DNA of 64,000 nt from a bacterium (GTDB lineage: Bacteria; Hinthialibacterota; Hinthialibacteria; OLB16), in NCBI GenBank assembly GCA_022072055.1, contig JAJVIK010000007.1, positions 577,442 through 641,441 of the forward strand, read 5' to 3'. Both the position numbers and the translations under genes were made by a program. The notes under the pieces are model-generated. The model saw only the letters and a program-made list of their open reading frames with translations, searched no databases and was not told the origin of the DNA. Below are positions 27,253-39,499 of the stretch, in pieces (the stretch's first letter is position 1; every line of letters starts with the position of its first letter).

Positions 27253-28083
27253 TCAGCGGACACAGAGTCCGACAAATTTTTCGGTCTGTTCGCGGATCGC
27301 GCGTTCGGTCGGCAGACGCTCCATCGAGCTCGCGCCATAGAAGCCATCCACCGCCTTGCAGGTCTTGAGGATGAATTCGGCATCCTCCGGCTCCGCGATG
27401 GGACCGCCATGGCAGAGCATCAACACATCGGCGCGCGCCGACTTGGCGGCATCGCTGATCTCATCAATGATCGGGACACACTGTTCAAGGGTCCTTGCGG
27501 TGTGCGCGCCGATGGAGCCGGAGGTGGTGAGTCCCATGTGCGCCACCAGGATGTCGGCTCCGGCCCGGGCCATCTCGGCGGCATCGGCGGGGCTGAAGAC
27601 ATAGGGGGTGGTGAGGAGATCGAGGTCCCGCGCCAAGCGGATCATCTCCACCTCGCGGTCATAGCCCATGCGAGTCTCCTCCAGGTTGGCGCGGAAGCCC
27701 CCATCAATCAGCCCGACTGTCGGAAAGTTTTGAACCCCGGCGAATCCGGCATCCCGAACTTGGGGAAGGAAACGACTCATGATCCGCATCGGGTCGGTCC
27801 CGCACACCCCGGCAAGGACCGGGGTCTTCTTGACCACCGGGAGCACCTCGGAGGCCATCTCCATCACAATCGCGTTGGCGTCTCCATAGGGCATCAGTCC
27901 CGCGAGCGACCCATGCCCGGCCATGCGGAAACGGCCGGAGTTGTAGATCACGATCAGGTCGATGCCGCCGGCCTCCTCGAATTTGGCGCTGATTCCGGTC
28001 CCGGCGCCACCGCCGATGATCGGGCGCCCCAAGGCGATCTTGGAGCGAAAGCGGGAGAGGATTTCCTCACGGGTTTCGGGCAT
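27253..28083 (-). CDS. phosphoenolpyruvate hydrolase family protein (TIM barrel)
   Basis: 276 residues. [41 protein letters not shown] and the following [20 protein letters not shown] are the hallmark of the Pfam PEP-hydrolase family (similar to the C-terminal part of plant Tm-1). Proposed to bind phosphoenolpyruvate-like ligands; the reaction is not established. The ATG at 28083 was chosen over an upstream frame. It follows the UPF0261 gene in the same direction, the usual pairing of the two Tm-1 halves. Confidence 0.9.
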
Positions 28084-28127
28084 TGGACAGGGCTCCTTTC
28101 TTTCCACCTATTGAACCGCGGACTGCC

Positions 28128-28234
28128 TTGAACCACGGAAAGGTGGATTGCCAAGGGAAGGGCGCGGAAGGCGCTCGATCGGAGTCCTTGCTTTCCGCGG
28201 GCTTCCGCGCACTTCCGTGGTTTCCGTGGTTCAA
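28128..28234. repeat. perfect 14-bp inverted repeat spanning the intergenic gap
   Basis: TTGAACCACGGAAA at 28128-28141 is an exact inverted copy of 28221-28234, with a 79-base spacer containing partial CGCGGAAG copies. The right arm overlaps the UPF0261 stop codon. The sequence resembles the common dispersed ACCACGGAA repeats. Confidence 0.7.
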
Positions 28235-29457
28235 TGGTTTTCGCGCCGCATCATCTTCAAGAGCTCCTCCGCGCAGATGCGGGCGAACTCGGGATCATTG
28301 ATATTGTGATCCAATTCCACAACCGGGATGTCTCTCCGGAGATCCTCCTTGAGAGAGCCGAGCAACGCCTGATCCGCCTCCGGCCACCAGAAGGGTCCGC
28401 CCGGCGAGTCGATCATCGAGAGCCCCTTGAGGGGAAACAGGACTGTGACCGGCCCCAGGCTCTGGTTCAGTTTTTCGGCGAGGATTCGTCCCAGCTCGCG
28501 GTTCTCCTCCACATTCGTGCGCATGAGGGTCACATTGGGGTTGTGGGGATAGAACTTGCGCCCCTTGAACCTGTCCGGGACCGTTTCCGGAGCCCAGAAG
28601 TTGACCATGTCCAGGCATCCCGGGACCACCACGACGGGGATCCCGATTCTCGCGGCGGCCTCGAGGCGAGTGGGACCCGCGCTGAGCACCCCCCCGACCA
28701 GTTCGTCCGCCCACTCCGTGGTGGTGATATCGAGCACGCCCGAAATAAGCCCGGCCTCAATCAGGCTCTCCATGGTTCTCCCGCCTGTTCCGGTTGCATG
28801 AAACACCAGGACCTCGTACCCGCGTTCTTCGAGGAAGCCTTTCGCGGCTTCCACACAGTTTGTGGTGTTGCCGAACATCGAGGCCACAATGAGCGGCTTG
28901 TCTTGTCCGAAAGGGACCTTGGCGGTGACCATCCCGCACACCGCGCCGGCGGCGCGCGCGAGAACCTCGCGGCTGATGCGGTTGATGCCGGAAATGTCCA
29001 CAATGCTCGGGATCATCACAATGTCCTTGACCCCGACATAAGGCGAGACATCGGTCCCCGCGAGGGTGGAGACCATGACCTTGGGGACCCCGATGGGGAG
29101 CATCCGCATCGCGGCGCAGGCCATGGCGGTTCCGCCCGAACCGCCCATCGCCATCACCCCCTGAAACCGTCCCTCGGCGTACAGCTTCGGAACCAGCGCC
29201 TCGGCCCCGCGAGTCATCGCCGCCACCGCCTCGCCCCGGTCGGCTTTGGAGACCAAGGCCGCCAGAGCCGCACCACCCGCCGCGGCCACCTCCTCGCGAG
29301 GGATGTTCGGCTCAAGTCCCGGCGCGCCGAGAATCCCGAGGTCGATGACCAGGGCGCCCAGCCCAGCGGCCTCGATGCACTCTTTCACGAAGCGGTATTC
29401 GGCGCCCTTGGTGTCCAGGGAGCCAAGGAGGGCAATGGTGGGGGGCATGGAATTCAT
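28231..29457 (-). CDS. Tm-1-like ATP-binding domain protein (UPF0261)
   Basis: 408 residues. IALLGSLDTKGAEYRFVKECIEAAG, VMAMGGSGGTAMACAAMR, GTDVSPYVGVKDIVMIPSIVDISGINRISREVLARAA and GTGGRTMESLIEAG match the UPF0261/Tm-1 N-terminal family, an ATP-binding two-domain fold. Plant Tm-1 is a viral resistance protein, while bacterial roles are unknown and probably metabolic. Starts at 29457 or 29448 are both possible. It is paired with the PEP-hydrolase-like gene, separated by 147 bases holding an inverted repeat. Confidence 0.92.
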   Translation of the reverse strand: MNSMPPTIALLGSLDTKGAEYRFVKECIEAAGLGALVIDLGILGAPGLEPNIPREEVAAAGGAALAALVSKADRGEAVAAMTRGAEALVPKLYAEGRFQGVMAMGGSGGTAMACAAMRMLPIGVPKVMVSTLAGTDVSPYVGVKDIVMIPSIVDISGINRISREVLARAAGAVCGMVTAKVPFGQDKPLIVASMFGNTTNCVEAAKGFLEERGYEVLVFHATGTGGRTMESLIEAGLISGVLDITTTEWADELVGGVLSAGPTRLEAAARIGIPVVVVPGCLDMVNFWAPETVPDRFKGRKFYPHNPNVTLMRTNVEENRELGRILAEKLNQSLGPVTVLFPLKGLSMIDSPGGPFWWPEADQALLGSLKEDLRRDIPVVELDHNINDPEFARICAEELLKMMRRENH

Positions 29458-29696: not shown

Positions 29697-32279
29697 ATGC
29701 GACTTGATCAGTCCCGAAACCTCCACCGCCGTTTTACTCAATCCGCTCCCTGCGACCCATGGCCGGAGGGCATTCCCCCCCCACACTTTTTTATGCGCGG
29801 GTCGGGATCCCATGTCTGGGATGCCGACGGAAATGAATACATCGATTACATCCTGGGGATGGGACCGCTCATTCTCGGACACTCGCCCGCCACGGTGATC
29901 GAAGCGGTCACTCGCCAGCTCCAGGATGGACTGCTGTTCGCCACCCCGACTGACCTTGAAATCGAAGTCGCGGAATCCCTGAAAGCGCTTGTCCCCTGCG
30001 CGGAAAAAGTCCGCTTTGGAACCTCCGGCTCCGAGGCGGTGCATGCCGCGCTGCGATTGGCTCGCGCCGCGACGGGCAGACCGAGGATCCTCCGTTTCGA
30101 GGGCCACTACCATGGCTGGTTGGACAACATTGCTTGGGAAGGCGCGGGTGGAAATGGGGGCGGCGCTCTCAAGCCCAGCGCGGCGAAAGGACAGATTCCG
30201 AGCGACTCGGAAGGTCTGTTGATCCTCCCTTGGAATGACTTGGAGGCGGTGGGGGACCTCTTCCGGGGTAAGGGGAGCTCGATCGCGGCAGTGATCTTGG
30301 AGCCGGTGATGGCGAGTTGCGGAGCGATTCCCCCGACGAATGGTTTTCTCGCGGGCTTACACGAATTGTGCGCGCGTCATGGATCGGTCCTGATCTTTGA
30401 TGAGGTGGTGACCGGTTTCCGTCTGGCCCTCGGAGGAGCCCAAGAGTTCTTCGGGGTCACTCCCGACCTCGCGGTGTTTGGAAAGGCGCTTGGCGCGGGA
30501 ATTCCGATCAGCGCGGTGGCCGGCGGGGAGCGAGTCATGAGGCATTGGGGGGAAGCCAGCCCGATTCTCGCCGGGACACACTCGGCCAACCCGGTCAGTC
30601 TGGCCGCCGCGCGCGCGACCCTGGAAACTCTCTCCGCCGACGGAGGGAAGCTCCTGCTCGGGATGCGCGAGACCGCCGCGAAGCTGCGGTCCGGCCTTGA
30701 GGCCCTCCGCGAGCAAACCTCCCTTCCCCTGACCATCCGCGGCGTGGGACCTCTGCTTAATGTTTCGTTTGTCCCACGGGACTCCTCACCCATAACCGAC
30801 CATCGGTCCTATCTCCAAACTGACTTCGCCCTCACCGCGCGCCTTTTCGACTCCCTTCGCGCGCGAGGCGTCCATGTCGGCCATGATGGGCGCTGGTTTC
30901 TCTCATCGACCCACACGGATGAAGACATCCAACGGACCTTGGCGGCGATGCAATCCTCCCTCGAGGAGCTCGGAGCGGAGTCCACGAGTTCAATTCGGAG
31001 GCCGAGGGGGGGCGGCGCCTTCGACGGAAATGGGCAAGCTCACAAGGTGGGGTGGGTCCGAGCGGCGCTCTCGCCCCTGTGCGCGAGGATTCATCGCCGG
31101 TACCAACACGAGCGGGATCGAGCCTATCGTTCTCTGGAAGAGAATCATCCCAGGAATTATCACTGGATTGTCGGGTGGGAGGTGTCGCACAAATGCAACC
31201 TTTCCTGTGTGTATTGCGCGCAGGACCACCGGAACGGGCATCCCAGCGAGGATTTCGAGAAAGGGCTTGCGCATGTTCTTCGCATTCAGCCCCGTCTCCT
31301 GTGGGTCACCGGCGGCGAACCTTCCCTGGTTCCGAAACTCCCCGAGACCCTGCGTCGCATCCGCGTGGAATGCGGCAACCCTGCAATCCTGATGTCCACC
31401 AATTTCCAGCGGCCTGCGGCGGTCTTCGATGAGTTCGCCGAGGTCCTGGACTTCCTGTTCATCACGCTCGATGGAGTGGAGGAGGACAACTGGACCACGC
31501 GCGGATTCAACGGGCGGAAACTGCTGGAGCGACTCGCTGAGTTCATCCCACGTCATCCGAAGCTGTCTATCACCCTCACGACCGTGGCGACTGTTCACAA
31601 CCTGGACACTTTGGAGAGCTTTGTCGATTCGGTTCAGACTGTCTTGCCGGGGATTCAGCAGTACATCTGGCCCATGAATCCCACCTTCCATCCGCTCTCG
31701 GTCGGCGGCTCCCCGGAGACGGCGGCTCGCTTCGCCGAGATTATGGAGCGGCTTTCCATTCGCTATCCGAGCATCCGAGGCTCCACGCCCAAGAACAAGG
31801 AGGCGCGCGTGGAACACGGGGGCAATGGATCGCTCCTCCGGCGATGGCTCAGGGATTCCGATCTGGTCCGCTGCGACCGTCAATACTTCTACGCGGATAT
31901 CGGCGCGGATGGGCTCCTCATGGACTGCCGCTTGGCCCGCATCATTCCCAACCTCGACCACCGCGCGAACCAGGCGCTCGAGAAAGGACAGCCGCTTGAG
32001 CTTTACCGCGCGCTCCAGCTGCTCCGAAAGCAGACCCGCGACATGGAAGGCTACAATCCTGTCTGCTCCCACCCCTGCACTTGCGTGGAAGGTCTGGGGG
32101 AGGTGGTCCTGTCGAGCAGTCGCGAAGACCCTCGGCTCCACTCGGTCCCGCAGCTCCTGGGGAGCCGTTTTCGCCCCGAGGATCGCCGCGCCGCGTCCGA
32201 GTTCATTCAACGGCACATCAACTCCCTTTTCGAGGAATCCTTCTTCGATGAAATCGGACCCAAGGCGGGTAGGGGATGA
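29697..32279 (+). CDS. fusion: class III aminotransferase (glutamate-1-semialdehyde-type) plus radical SAM domain
   Basis: 860 residues in one frame. Residues 1-425 are a class III PLP enzyme of the glutamate-1-semialdehyde aminomutase type: HFFMRGSGSHVWDADGNEYIDYILGMGP, RFGTSGSEAVHAALRLARAATGR, and PLP lysine Lys263 in VFGKALGAGIP. A linker of about 60 residues leads to a radical SAM domain with Cys500, Cys504 and Cys507 (CNLSCVYC), TGGEP at the SAM site, and C-terminal cysteines (VCSHPCTCVEG) that may bind a second FeS cluster. The fusion is unusual. It overlaps the next radical SAM gene by 4 bases, suggesting stepwise modification of one substrate, possibly an amino acid or peptide. Confidence 0.9.
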   Translation: MRLDQSRNLHRRFTQSAPCDPWPEGIPPPHFFMRGSGSHVWDADGNEYIDYILGMGPLILGHSPATVIEAVTRQLQDGLLFATPTDLEIEVAESLKALVPCAEKVRFGTSGSEAVHAALRLARAATGRPRILRFEGHYHGWLDNIAWEGAGGNGGGALKPSAAKGQIPSDSEGLLILPWNDLEAVGDLFRGKGSSIAAVILEPVMASCGAIPPTNGFLAGLHELCARHGSVLIFDEVVTGFRLALGGAQEFFGVTPDLAVFGKALGAGIPISAVAGGERVMRHWGEASPILAGTHSANPVSLAAARATLETLSADGGKLLLGMRETAAKLRSGLEALREQTSLPLTIRGVGPLLNVSFVPRDSSPITDHRSYLQTDFALTARLFDSLRARGVHVGHDGRWFLSSTHTDEDIQRTLAAMQSSLEELGAESTSSIRRPRGGGAFDGNGQAHKVGWVRAALSPLCARIHRRYQHERDRAYRSLEENHPRNYHWIVGWEVSHKCNLSCVYCAQDHRNGHPSEDFEKGLAHVLRIQPRLLWVTGGEPSLVPKLPETLRRIRVECGNPAILMSTNFQRPAAVFDEFAEVLDFLFITLDGVEEDNWTTRGFNGRKLLERLAEFIPRHPKLSITLTTVATVHNLDTLESFVDSVQTVLPGIQQYIWPMNPTFHPLSVGGSPETAARFAEIMERLSIRYPSIRGSTPKNKEARVEHGGNGSLLRRWLRDSDLVRCDRQYFYADIGADGLLMDCRLARIIPNLDHRANQALEKGQPLELYRALQLLRKQTRDMEGYNPVCSHPCTCVEGLGEVVLSSSREDPRLHSVPQLLGSRFRPEDRRAASEFIQRHINSLFEESFFDEIGPKAGRG

Positions 32280-33394
32280 TGGCGACGGCAATCGGGGCGG
32301 TGGTGAGATCGCTTTCGGAGGTCCTTGGGTGGCACGCTCGCAGGAATGGATCCCCCGTTCGGAATCTGGGGCGCGAAATCTATCTGTTGATGGACCTCTC
32401 CACAACGTGCGACATCCTGTGTTCGCACTGCTTTCGTAACGCGTATACGCCCGCGCCAAGGACAATGACCGCCCGCGAATTGGAGGTTCTTGAAACGAGC
32501 GTCTTTCCGCATGTGGATCGCCTCGCCTTTTCCGAGACTGCCGAGGCTCTGCATGTCCGCATGATGCCGGAGGCGCTTTCCGCCGCCCGTCGCGCCGGAA
32601 TCCCCTTTATTCGTATTCAATCCAACGGCACACACCTCTCGCCGGAGGTGGGCAAAGTCCTTCTGGACCATGCTCTGAACGTTCTCGGCGTTTCCCTGGA
32701 TGCCGTCACACCCGAGACCTTCGCGCGAATTCGCAAGGGGGCTGATTGGGAACAGGTTGTAAAGAATGTCCGCGCATTCGCTCGCATGCGGGATGCGCGG
32801 CCCGAAGCGCGGACCCGCATCGCGCTCAACTTCTCGGTGATGGTCCAAAACGCCGCCGAGGCCCCGTCCTTCATACGATTCGCCAAGGAACTTGGGGCCG
32901 ACTCGGTGAGCTTCACCCACCTGATGATTGAGACTGAGGAGATGCGCTCCTGGAGCCTGATCCACGATCCCGTGCGCGCCAATTCCCTCTTCTCCGAGCT
33001 GCGCGAGGAGGCCGAGCAGGTGGCATTCCCTGTCCTTGTCCCCGAGGATGTGCCCTCGACCCTGAAGCCGTTCGATGGCGCCCTGCTGGAATCCCCATGC
33101 TACCATGGCCCGTGCCAGGCGGCTCGCGAGAAGTGGGTCTATCTGATGGCGGATGGAACTTGCCACCCCTGCCTGAACCTCCAGGACTGCCGGCCGATGG
33201 GGAATGTGTTCGAGACCCCACTTTCCGAGCTTTGGTTCGGCCCACGGAACCAAAGCTTCCGACGCGGAGCCTTGGTCTCGGGCCATGTGGAAGGGTGCGA
33301 CCACTGCAAGATTTTCATCGACCCCTCCGAAACCGGAAATGAAATGGCCTACATGGCCAAGCGCCTGACCACCCGTTCCGCCGCGAATTTGTGA
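32276..33394 (+). CDS. radical SAM protein with SPASM-type C-terminal cysteines
   Basis: 372 residues. The radical SAM motif C-x3-C-x2-C is Cys45, Cys49, Cys52 (TTCDILCSHCFRN). AFSETAEALHVRMMPEAL stands at the usual GGE position, which is altered to S-E-T-A-E. The C-terminal part has CYHGPCQ, CHPCLNLQDC and GCDHC, a cysteine layout like SPASM domains that carry auxiliary FeS clusters. It overlaps the fusion gene (ATGATG at 32276; ATG at 32279 is possible). SPASM enzymes often modify peptides or cofactors; the substrate is unknown. Confidence 0.88.
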   Translation: MMATAIGAVVRSLSEVLGWHARRNGSPVRNLGREIYLLMDLSTTCDILCSHCFRNAYTPAPRTMTARELEVLETSVFPHVDRLAFSETAEALHVRMMPEALSAARRAGIPFIRIQSNGTHLSPEVGKVLLDHALNVLGVSLDAVTPETFARIRKGADWEQVVKNVRAFARMRDARPEARTRIALNFSVMVQNAAEAPSFIRFAKELGADSVSFTHLMIETEEMRSWSLIHDPVRANSLFSELREEAEQVAFPVLVPEDVPSTLKPFDGALLESPCYHGPCQAAREKWVYLMADGTCHPCLNLQDCRPMGNVFETPLSELWFGPRNQSFRRGALVSGHVEGCDHCKIFIDPSETGNEMAYMAKRLTTRSAANL

Positions 33395-33655: not shown

Positions 33656-33677
33656 TCATTCAAAGGCCAGCGAATAG
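33564..33677 (+). CDS. possible 37-residue small ORF behind the radical SAM genes
   Basis: TTG start preceded by GGAGGAGGGG at good spacing. The product begins PKREVQVPDFMQLAVQDEIL, continues into a short amphipathic helix, and ends GEHHHSKASE. It overlaps the 3' end of the convergent hydrolase gene by 22 bases. It could be a genuine small peptide, a truncated gene or chance; no family is recognised. Confidence 0.25.
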   Translation: MPKREVQVPDFMQLAVQDEILRLEESRGEHHHSKASE

Positions 33678-35182
33678 ATGTCCGCCTCGCGCAACACAAA
33701 GCGGACGACAACCGGGTTGCCTCGATGCGCGGCGACACTGCGATTCCCCTTCCAGCTAACTCGCCGATCAAGAGCGTCACCGTAGATCGGATCACACTCG
33801 TCAAGCGTAAAGCCGGGGATTGGCGTGCCGCCGGGTTCGCGGATCTCGACTTGGATCCTACCGGCGGCACTGGTGGCGGCGTTGAGCGAGAGTTCGTGGC
33901 CGGAGAAGGTGATCGGCTTGGTTGTAAACTCGCCTTCCTGCAATTTGGCGTGGACGGAGGCGAAACCGTCGATCCGCAACGCATAGCGGCGGAGGCGCGA
34001 GTCGCGCCCGGTGAAGTAGGACTCTGTGGCGTAGAGGGAGAGCTCCCTTGGGGAATCGTCGCGAGCGGATTGGGTTTCAACGACGTGCCAAGCGATATAG
34101 TTGTCGCCGTATGACCAGTTGTGGCGCGTTCTAAGTCCGGGCCGTAGAAACACGTCGTTACTCTGGCGGAAGCTTTTCCCGTCGCGGCTGGTGATGTAAA
34201 CCGAGTCCGTGACCGCCGTGCCGTAGCGCGGCGAGACGCTCATGCGCTTTTCCCGAAGGTCCCATTCAGGCAACAACTTCGTGGATTCTGTAAAGCCGTG
34301 ATCCACATACCGTGCGGGGAACCCGATATAGAGGTGCGGCGCCCGCGAATACGGTTTGATCTGGTTGATGTAGAACTGCGCGAGGGGCTGCGGGCCCTCA
34401 CCGTCGGGAAAGGTGATAGCGCCTTCTTCGGTCCAGTGGAGGTAATCCTTGGAAACCGCGCGGTTCACCCGGCGCGTTCCCTTGAAGTTGCCTTGTGAAA
34501 ATGTCCGGTAGTAAAGGACATACTGCCGCTCCGCTTCGGACCAGAAGGAAACGTTTTGCGAGTCGAAAGCGCCGTTACTAAAGACCGGCGCGTCGGCCAT
34601 GGGCGTCCAGTGGATGCCGTCCGGCGATTGATAGACCCAGATCCCCTTGCCGGTCTCGGCGCCCGCGCCGGTAGCCTTGTATCGGGCTTCGGGCGTTGCG
34701 GTAGGGTTCTCATCAATAAATGGAGAGAAGTCGTGACAACCGCCGCCGTCGCCCATCTTGTTAAGGATAATGTTGTTGTCTTTGGAGCCGTTGAACTCGC
34801 AAAGGCCAAGGCTGGGGCGCACCCAGGTGATGCCGTCCTTGCTCTCGAAGTAGGCGATGCTCAGCGGGCCACCCGGTTCAATGCCGGTGGGGATCTGCCA
34901 GGCATGGTAGTACATGCGGTAAACGGACTCGCGCGCGTCGTGCAGAACGGTGTAGTAGCCGCAGCCGTTCCCTTCCCACGGCGCGTCGCATTGGACCGCG
35001 ATTTCCCGGGGTTCGGGCTGATGCACGAGTATCTGAACATTCTTCATCTCGCCGATGAGATGGTTGTCGATAAACAGCTCGCGCCGGCGGGCAAGGTCTA
35101 TCGACTCAGCGAAAACCGGGTGCGCCAGGCAGACCAGCAGGCCTGCCGTCATTCCGAGGGTCAGATTTCCTGTGGCATGCAT
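33656..35182 (-). CDS. secreted glycoside hydrolase-like protein, five-bladed propeller
   Basis: 508 residues with a signal peptide (LTLGMTAGLLVCLAHPVFA). RRELFIDNHLIGEMKNVQILVHQPEPREIAV, then YYHAWQIPTGIEPGGPLSIAYFESKDGITWVRPSLGL, and later repeated S-x-D-G-x-x-W units (YQSPDGIHWTPM, SKDYLHWTEEG, SRDGKSFRQS) are typical of GH32/43-like propeller proteins common in Planctomycetes. The start at 35182 was preferred because the frame upstream is a remnant of a different gene. The substrate is unknown; carbohydrate binding is likely. Confidence 0.83.
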   Translation of the reverse strand: MHATGNLTLGMTAGLLVCLAHPVFAESIDLARRRELFIDNHLIGEMKNVQILVHQPEPREIAVQCDAPWEGNGCGYYTVLHDARESVYRMYYHAWQIPTGIEPGGPLSIAYFESKDGITWVRPSLGLCEFNGSKDNNIILNKMGDGGGCHDFSPFIDENPTATPEARYKATGAGAETGKGIWVYQSPDGIHWTPMADAPVFSNGAFDSQNVSFWSEAERQYVLYYRTFSQGNFKGTRRVNRAVSKDYLHWTEEGAITFPDGEGPQPLAQFYINQIKPYSRAPHLYIGFPARYVDHGFTESTKLLPEWDLREKRMSVSPRYGTAVTDSVYITSRDGKSFRQSNDVFLRPGLRTRHNWSYGDNYIAWHVVETQSARDDSPRELSLYATESYFTGRDSRLRRYALRIDGFASVHAKLQEGEFTTKPITFSGHELSLNAATSAAGRIQVEIREPGGTPIPGFTLDECDPIYGDALDRRVSWKGNRSVAAHRGNPVVVRFVLREADIYSLAFE

Positions 35183-35332
35183 GCTTCGCGCACTCCCCGC
35201 GCCCCACTCGTTGGGGCGAATGCAGTAACCGATCTGACCGCCTTCGATGAGTAGCCCCTCGTTCAGGACATGCCGGAAACTCACGGTTCCGAGAAGCCTT
35301 GATTCACGCGCAAACCCCAATACGCGCCGCAC
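35183..35332 (-). pseudogene. fragment of a GNAT acetyltransferase gene
   Basis: Directly upstream of, and in frame with, the propeller gene the minus strand encodes RLLGTVSFRHVLNEGLLIEG then GQIGYCIRPNEWGAGSAR. That corresponds to the middle of a GNAT N-acetyltransferase: strand beta4 followed by the acetyl-CoA loop, normally Q/R-x-x-G-x-G/A. Both ends of the domain are missing and the pyrophosphate loop is degraded. It is a relic left at a recombination junction. Confidence 0.65.
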
Positions 35333-37393: not shown

Positions 37394-39499
37394 ATGAGTC
37401 GCTCCGCTCTCCCCGTAACCTTCCTCCGCGCTTTCGCCCTGTGCCTTCTTCTCGCCGCCGCGAGCCTGGCCGAGGAGGTCAAGATCATCCGCGATGATTT
37501 CGGCATCCCCCACATCTTCGCCGAAAGCGATGAGGGGATGTCTTACGGCCTGGGCTATGCCCAAGCCGAGGACCGTTTGGAGGAACTGCTCAGGAACTAT
37601 CGCCTCGCCGAGGGAACCATGTCGGAGGCCTTCGGGAAGGAATTCTATAAGCACGATTACCGTCAGCGGGTGTGGCGTCACCGTGAGGTGAGCGAGTCGA
37701 AATACGGAACCCTTTCGGAAATGTCGCGCCGCTGCATGGAAGCTTTTCAGGAAGGGATCAAGGCCTACATGAAGGAGCACCCGGAACAGGCTCCCGCCTG
37801 GGCCCCGGAGCTCCACCCGTGGCAGATTGTGGCCCTTTCGCGCTTCATCATCTGGAACTGGCCGGAGGGGGATGCCGCCGAGGACCTCGAACGCGGCGGC
37901 ATCGCCCCCGATCCGGTCGAGTATCGCGGCTCGAACCAGTGGTTGATCGCCCCCAAACGAACCACGGACGGAGCGGCGCTCGCGCTGATCGATCCGCATC
38001 TCTCCTGGTATGGCACGTTCCGGTTTTATGAGGCGCGCCTGTACGGCAAGACCATCAAGATGTCGGGCGCCGGCATCCTGGGCGCGGCGCTCCCCGCGCT
38101 TGGCCACAGCCAGTGGTGCTCGGTGGCGATGACCACCGGCTCGGGCGACACCGCCGATGTCTTTGAGGAGACTCTCAACCCGGACAATCCGCTCCAGTAT
38201 CAGGTCGATGGGGAGTGGCGCGACATGACTGTTCGCCAGGAGGTGATCCGGGTGAAGAAGGAGGATGGTTCGCTCGATGAAGTGAAGGTGGAGATCCCTT
38301 ACACCCATCACGGCCCGATCGTGGCGCGCAAGGCGGGCAAGGGGTACGCCATGGCGATCCCCTACATGGAGGACATCGGGCTTTCGGACCAGGTGTACGA
38401 GATGATGACCGCGAGGAACCTCGCGGAGATGAAGAAGGCGCTCTCGCGGCTCGCGCTCATGGGCCAGAATGTGATGATCGGGACCGTGGATGGCGACATC
38501 TACTACCAGCGCACCGGGAAAGTCCCGATCCGGGCCGAGGGAACCGATTCCTCCCGACCGATTCCCGGGCATCTCTCGAAGAACGATTGGAAGGGGATTC
38601 ACCGGGCGGAAGACCTGGTTCAGGTCACCAATCCCCCCCAGGGGTACATGCAGAACTGCAATGTCTCCCCCTTCGCGATGATGAAGAACAGCCCGATGCG
38701 TCTCGCGGACTACCCCGCCTATGTCTATGGCGCGCCGGAGATGCCCGCGCACCAACGCGCGGCGATGGCGCTTGAGGTTCTCGACCGGGATTCGAGTTTC
38801 ACCGTGGAGGAGGCGCTCGACTTGGCCATGAACACCGAGGTCTATAACGCCGACAAGTGGCAAGCGCGCCTCAATCAGGCTTGGGACAAGAAGCCATCTT
38901 CCGGTGCCGACACGGTCCGCGTGCATGCCCTGATCTCCGAATGGGACCGCCACAGCCGCCCCGAGTCAACCGGCGCGATGGCCTACAAGTATTGGAAGGA
39001 CTCCCTGCCGGAGGATGCGCGCAAGGGGGATCGGATGGGGGACCCGCCGCCCGAATCGCTGACCGATGAGGAGGCCCTGGCCGCGCTCGAAGCCGCCGCC
39101 AAAAAGCTTCAAGCCGATTTTGGGAAGCTGGAGGTCGCCTTCGGCGAGGTCTACCGTGTGGGCCGCGAAGGCGGGAAGGAGACCTGGCCGGTGGGTGGCG
39201 GGAATCCGGGGAGCGGGATGGCCACTCCACGGAACATCAGCTTCAAGAAGGGCAAGGATGGGAGGTTCATCGGGTCCGGTGGGCAAACCGCCATCCAGGT
39301 GATTCAGCTCACCAAGCCGCCCAAATCCTGGACCGTGATTCCCCTGGGCGAAAGCGACCATCCGGAGTCCGGCCACTGGGACGACCAAGCCCAAAAGCTC
39401 TTCAGTCAGGGTAAGCTCAAACCCTCGTACTTCATGGACGAGAGGGGCCTTGCGGCGCACACGGAGAGGGTGGTGAGGGTGGAGTTTGAACGAAAATGA
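37394..39499 (+). CDS. penicillin acylase family protein (N-terminal nucleophile amidase)
   Basis: 701 residues, exported by a signal peptide (ALCLLLAAASLAEE). The family pieces are VKIIRDDFGIPHIFAESDEGMSYGLGYAQAEDRL in the A-chain and, at the autocleavage site, RGSNQWLIAPKRT, where Ser180 becomes the N-terminal nucleophile of the B-chain. The later HHGPIV and NVMIGTVDGDIYYQRTGKVP fit the oxyanion and substrate pocket. It hydrolyses amides such as acyl-homoserine lactones or beta-lactam side chains; specificity is unknown. Periplasmic, apparently monocistronic. Confidence 0.93.
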   Translation: MSRSALPVTFLRAFALCLLLAAASLAEEVKIIRDDFGIPHIFAESDEGMSYGLGYAQAEDRLEELLRNYRLAEGTMSEAFGKEFYKHDYRQRVWRHREVSESKYGTLSEMSRRCMEAFQEGIKAYMKEHPEQAPAWAPELHPWQIVALSRFIIWNWPEGDAAEDLERGGIAPDPVEYRGSNQWLIAPKRTTDGAALALIDPHLSWYGTFRFYEARLYGKTIKMSGAGILGAALPALGHSQWCSVAMTTGSGDTADVFEETLNPDNPLQYQVDGEWRDMTVRQEVIRVKKEDGSLDEVKVEIPYTHHGPIVARKAGKGYAMAIPYMEDIGLSDQVYEMMTARNLAEMKKALSRLALMGQNVMIGTVDGDIYYQRTGKVPIRAEGTDSSRPIPGHLSKNDWKGIHRAEDLVQVTNPPQGYMQNCNVSPFAMMKNSPMRLADYPAYVYGAPEMPAHQRAAMALEVLDRDSSFTVEEALDLAMNTEVYNADKWQARLNQAWDKKPSSGADTVRVHALISEWDRHSRPESTGAMAYKYWKDSLPEDARKGDRMGDPPPESLTDEEALAALEAAAKKLQADFGKLEVAFGEVYRVGREGGKETWPVGGGNPGSGMATPRNISFKKGKDGRFIGSGGQTAIQVIQLTKPPKSWTVIPLGESDHPESGHWDDQAQKLFSQGKLKPSYFMDERGLAAHTERVVRVEFERK

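Follow-up and report, generated by a model that had tools for sequence, protein, structure and literature searches.

What would an enzyme do that carries an aminotransferase and a radical SAM domain in one chain, and does a second radical SAM protein encoded directly behind it take part? The question arises from a locus inside a window of 64,000 nucleotides (the whole stretch of bacterial DNA that was analysed). The features needed to follow the argument are:

29697..30968, plus strand: class III PLP aminotransferase domain, residues 1-424, supported by Pfam PF00202, by alignment with unfused relatives and HemL, and by the tree. Lys263 and the FDEV aspartate are kept and the N-terminal S-x-x-R motif is absent.
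30969..31133, plus strand: linker, supported by the alignment of both known fusions and by AlphaFold2 pLDDT.
31134..32276, plus strand: radical SAM domain (Pfam PF04055), with CxxxCxxC at residues 500/504/507, GGEP, then Cys 726/744/790/794.
32276-33394, plus strand: second radical SAM protein of 372 aa with a SPASM/twitch C-terminus, assigned by Pfam, by a four-member family (A4) and by a BtrN profile match.
33656..35332, minus strand: convergent gene with no Pfam match; a 38% homologue is encoded 4.4 kb ahead of an unfused aminotransferase in another genome (locus L151).

The fusion is a genuine, conserved and lineage-restricted joining of two known kinds of enzyme, and its novelty lies in the combination. 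A single open frame (29697-32279, plus strand) encodes an 860-aa protein in which Pfam detects Aminotran_3 (PF00202) at residues 30-419 (E 1.8e-61) and Radical_SAM (PF04055) at residues 495-646 (E 1e-11). This agrees with the 860-residue fusion described in an earlier note on this DNA. The Aminotran_3 score of 208.5 bits against a gathering score of 30.5 makes the protein a class III PLP aminotransferase, and Lys263 aligns with the catalytic lysine of that family. The earlier note had positioned Lys263 and Cys500/504/507 correctly and had mentioned extra C-terminal cysteines; these are found at 726, 744, 790, 794 and 796.

The earlier note had also asked for a check of the frame near 30960-31080 and had named what would speak against the fusion: a frameshift at the junction, or homologues that exist solely as separate genes. 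Neither was found. Codon-position GC stays in the same phase between 29697 and 32247, the stretch 30897-31197 included, and does not switch until the gene boundary. A second genome encodes the same fusion in an open frame of 926 aa, so the junction is no artefact. A frameshift or a chimeric assembly at the junction was considered as a candidate explanation and is ruled out by these two observations.

The second genome (G012) belongs to another genus of the same family. Its fusion (L103:10231-13011, minus strand) is 44% identical to the window protein and keeps the PLP lysine, the radical SAM cysteines and four auxiliary cysteines. The linker varies in length and sequence between the two fusions, and model confidence is low at residues 434-470. 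Among 14 genomes of the phylum, strong matches to the radical SAM half are confined to the source genome and G012. On another G012 contig (contig 267), a contig-end fragment (L104:8358-10679, minus strand) is related to the fused radical SAM domain, and a 494-aa SPASM radical SAM protein comes after this truncated relative.

A search of limited sensitivity through about 1,250 further genomes did not turn up the fusion. At the thresholds used there was no match in any of 68 genomes of Hydrogenedentota (the phylum of locus L008) or of 388 genomes of the phylum of L053 (labelled Verrucomicrobia). In the phylum of L040 (labelled Desulfobacterales), 3 of 395 genomes gave weak matches that are too short for a fusion. 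The extra matches in a broad sample of 386 genomes were all unfused, and the 16 single genomes behind the compared loci yielded just one match, short and weak. In the larger samples scoring was limited to four candidates per genome at most, and the fusion may therefore occur elsewhere. Plasmids hold many aminotransferases, but none of the plasmid records reaches 80% coverage of the fusion, and none matches the radical SAM part alone; viral contigs contain distant radical SAM proteins only. A text search of the literature found no described enzyme with an aminotransferase-radical SAM make-up, and within that literature the earlier note's statement that no pathway with this architecture has been described holds.

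The nearest stand-alone relatives of the fused radical SAM domain are two radical SAM/twitch proteins in a genome of another phylum, G200 (L173:1706-2863 and L174:8094-9263). They belong to the same family and have the same cysteines at 21-24% identity. Unlike in the window, an aminotransferase is neither fused to them nor adjacent.

The aminotransferase half had been taken for a glutamate-1-semialdehyde-type aminomutase, and this assignment did not survive. In a maximum-likelihood tree both fused aminotransferase domains group together (support 93/94) and form one clade with their unfused sisters (95/97), while HemL forms a separate clade (100/100). The branches of the fused domains are longer than those of the unfused sisters, as expected for a changed role. 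The source genome has its own HemL (L089:7555-8841), to which the fused domain is 37-38% identical. Fold, catalytic lysine and PLP-binding aspartate are shared with HemL, and solved GSAM structures are the best structural matches of the domain. The differences are the clade, the attached radical SAM domain and three sequence features. The window protein and most sisters have Gly at the position of HemL Glu406 (F-E-A-W-F; Synechococcus numbering), and the mobile loop also differs in the alignment. The N-terminal S-x-x-R motif is present in the unfused sisters and in the G012 fusion and is missing from the window copy. The functional roles given here to S-x-x-R, Glu406 and the mobile loop are those known for GSAM. 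The missing motif is not hidden in another frame: the fusion's ATG is closely preceded by an in-frame stop, and the other forward frames, read by eye, do not contain the motif. With S-x-x-R lost, the window copy may use a substrate quite unlike those of its sisters. HemL function was rejected for the fused domain: it scores 336.9 bits against the cut-off of 527.3 of the curated NCBIfam HemL model (TIGR00713), carries the changed residues and lies outside the HemL clade.

A tetrapyrrole role, in which the aminotransferase domain would be a further glutamate-1-semialdehyde aminomutase and the radical SAM parts would serve alternative haem synthesis, is therefore scarcely credible. It would account for the HemL-type family scores, although these stay below the HemL cut-offs, and HemL and radical SAM genes do share loci in Coriobacteriia and others. 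Besides the position of the fused domain outside the HemL clade and the HemL gene elsewhere in the genome, the radical SAM parts fall below the AhbC/AhbD/NirJ cut-offs and no tetrapyrrole gene is present among the adjoining genes searched.

In the radical SAM half, Cys 726, 744, 790 and 794 are invariant wherever covered in five sequences (one partial), including the two stand-alone proteins from the other phylum. By sequence, the four cysteines fit one auxiliary cluster of the twitch type. The distinction between the single-cluster twitch and the full SPASM domain follows PMC9012708, according to which the auxiliary cluster of BtrN has four cysteine ligands and that of MoaA three. BtrN oxidises 2-deoxy-scyllo-inosamine, an aminocyclitol, by two electrons (PMC9012708). 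Neither the fused domain nor the second protein has the cysteine set of a two-cluster SPASM domain, each having four invariant auxiliary cysteines. A profile search of solved structures with the fused domain returned viperin, SkfB, CteB and MoaA and no BtrN match. The AlphaFold2 model of the whole protein, built on a thin alignment, has low confidence in the linker and the radical SAM half. A model of the radical SAM domain is confident in the core barrel only and gives generic radical SAM fold matches, among them the cores of viperin, SuiB, MoaA and DesII. Since the domain is not close to BtrN and its matches are generic, homology does not settle which reaction it catalyses.

The fusion gene and the second radical SAM gene share 4 bases (ATGA), an overlap of the length given in the earlier note, and the product of the second gene is probably made from the same mRNA. 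The description of the protein as SPASM-like stands as far as Pfam goes, with both Radical_SAM and SPASM matches, and does not stand by cysteine count. Cys 280, 299, 341 and 344, one cluster's worth, are invariant in its family (the window protein, the genome's own C18 copy and two G012 members), and this twitch-like set would fit a single auxiliary cluster. Both proteins have CxxxCxxC and a GGEP-like motif and exceed the profile cut-off of the radical SAM superfamily, but in the second the GGEP-like motif is degenerate. It reads TAEA, where its three relatives read TGEP, TGES and SGEP, and this may alter SAM binding. BtrN ranks first among solved structures for the family profile (E 2.2e-7), mostly through the C-terminal domain.

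The proposed coupling of the two proteins applies to the source genome and breaks down in G012, where no radical SAM gene follows the fusion. Downstream of it there lies an unrelated gene in convergent orientation, and other contigs carry the two relatives of the second enzyme. No recurrent gene partners were found around the second enzyme's three relatives.

The neighbourhoods of the unfused sister aminotransferases (50-56% identity) are more regular. They occur in clusters of a sodium:solute symporter, a GFO/IDH/MocA oxidoreductase and the aminotransferase in the source genome (L088), in G003 (L151) and in a Hydrogenedentota genome (L008). Two further arrangements were seen in the comparison. 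In G006, a fusion of a CTP_transf_3 domain (cytidylyltransferase) with an aminotransferase (L159:8234-10297, plus strand) comes straight after a GFO/IDH/MocA-like gene; its surroundings resemble a nonulosonate locus of the NeuB type. In G005, the gene for an 896-aa tandem double radical SAM/SPASM protein overlaps that of a class III aminotransferase with an extra N-terminal domain (L158:1136-5466, minus strand); coupling of an aminotransferase with radical SAM proteins thus exists elsewhere in the phylum. In a motif scan of all compared loci, other aminotransferase-radical SAM neighbours were found only in HemL loci resembling haem clusters.

Around the fusion itself, neither a symporter-type transporter nor a GFO/IDH/MocA gene is present among the neighbouring genes searched with Pfam. 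The genes upstream of the fusion and divergent from it are UPF0261, PEP_hydrolase and TauE genes by Pfam. The UPF0261 and PEP_hydrolase-like genes adjoin each other (27253-29457, minus strand) and are presumably counterparts of the plant Tm-1 protein's two halves. A penicillin amidase family gene (Pfam E 1.2e-126) lies at 37394-39499 on the plus strand. The contextual link of the convergent gene at 33656..35332 to an aminotransferase is weak. A scan for promoters and terminators gave nothing above chance.

Our preferred reading, to which we assign a probability of roughly 35%, is that the fusion is a bifunctional enzyme that oxidises and aminates a hydroxylated small molecule (a sugar, a cyclitol or an amino derivative). 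The radical SAM domain would oxidise a C-H or C-OH position of the substrate and the tethered class III aminotransferase would swap the resulting carbonyl for an amine, or the order may be reversed. The radical SAM part would thereby stand in for the NAD enzyme of the sister clusters, and the second radical SAM protein may carry out a related oxidation. We infer the redox direction, the carbohydrate-like substrate, the order of the steps and the cooperation of the two proteins. Oxidation followed by amination is the most economical reading because the sisters are paired with NAD-type oxidoreductases and the predicted auxiliary clusters are of the BtrN-like, four-cysteine kind. In 2-deoxystreptamine pathways the same oxidation is performed by an NAD enzyme or by BtrN, depending on the organism, and each is accompanied by an aminotransferase. 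The BtrN/BtrS pair of butirosin synthesis resembles the proposed system in its logic of radical oxidation and transamination and in the four-cysteine single auxiliary cluster. It differs in that the second protein is only distantly similar to BtrN and the fused domain has no BtrN match; BtrS is unfused and belongs to another aminotransferase family than the class III domain of the window.

Retention of the catalytic residues of both domains across two genera supports the oxidise-and-aminate reading, as do the second enzyme's profile match to BtrN, the overlapping gene pair of G005 and the G006 aminotransferase fusion behind a GFO/IDH/MocA-like gene. Counting against it are the missing kinship of the fused radical SAM domain with BtrN, the G200 relatives that have no aminotransferase neighbour, the gene order with the second enzyme that is not kept in G012, the loss of S-x-x-R, and the searched neighbours, which include no symporter-type or GFO/IDH/MocA gene. 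A bolder version gets long odds: one polypeptide would convert an unactivated C-H or C-OH of a small molecule into C-NH2, through radical oxidation and then transamination, without releasing the carbonyl, and the second enzyme would act at a further position, on an undescribed substrate.

Three other explanations share parts of this evidence. The two domains may act on unrelated substrates, having been joined in this lineage without serving a common pathway, and the second radical SAM gene would then be a neighbour by chance. The linker and the pairing with the second enzyme, both unconserved between the fusions, favour this, as do the stand-alone radical SAM relatives that lack an aminotransferase context. 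We consider it somewhat unlikely, given that the fusion is kept in two genera with both active sites intact, that the fused aminotransferases form one clade with longer branches than the unfused sisters, and that the two genes overlap by 4 bases in the window. Closer to the earlier note's idea of a shifted amino group is a scheme in which the aminotransferase produces or processes an amino sugar, from which the radical SAM domain removes the amine or on which it shifts the amine by a 1,2-migration. Deoxysugar pathways offer a precedent: a PLP aminotransferase is followed by a radical SAM deaminase, and the two enzymes, DesI and DesII, act sequentially on one sugar. The fold matches of the fused radical SAM domain include DesII structures, but these match no better than viperin, SuiB or MoaA, so the similarity is to the radical SAM core in general. 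In TDP-desosamine synthesis the two enzymes are separate proteins, DesI presumably belongs to a different aminotransferase family than the window's, and no nucleotide-sugar genes adjoin the fusion; the scheme is improbable.

Maturation of a ribosomal peptide (RiPP), with both radical SAM modules modifying the peptide and the aminotransferase aminating a carbonyl on it, is also quite unlikely. SPASM/twitch enzymes often act on peptides (PMC9012708). In the window, no convincing precursor-sized open frame lies between or beside the fusion and the second gene, although a precursor may be encoded farther away, and the fused radical SAM domain falls below every curated peptide-maturase cut-off. In daptides, class III aminotransferases reportedly do act on peptides, which counts in favour of this explanation.

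The significance of the fusion depends on whether its sites work together. If they do not cooperate, the locus represents no more than the local joining of genes for two common enzyme folds. If they do, radical SAM oxidation and PLP transamination would be combined in one chain that turns C-OH or C-H into C-NH2, which would inform amino-sugar and aminocyclitol chemistry in a little-known lineage and would be useful for biocatalysis.
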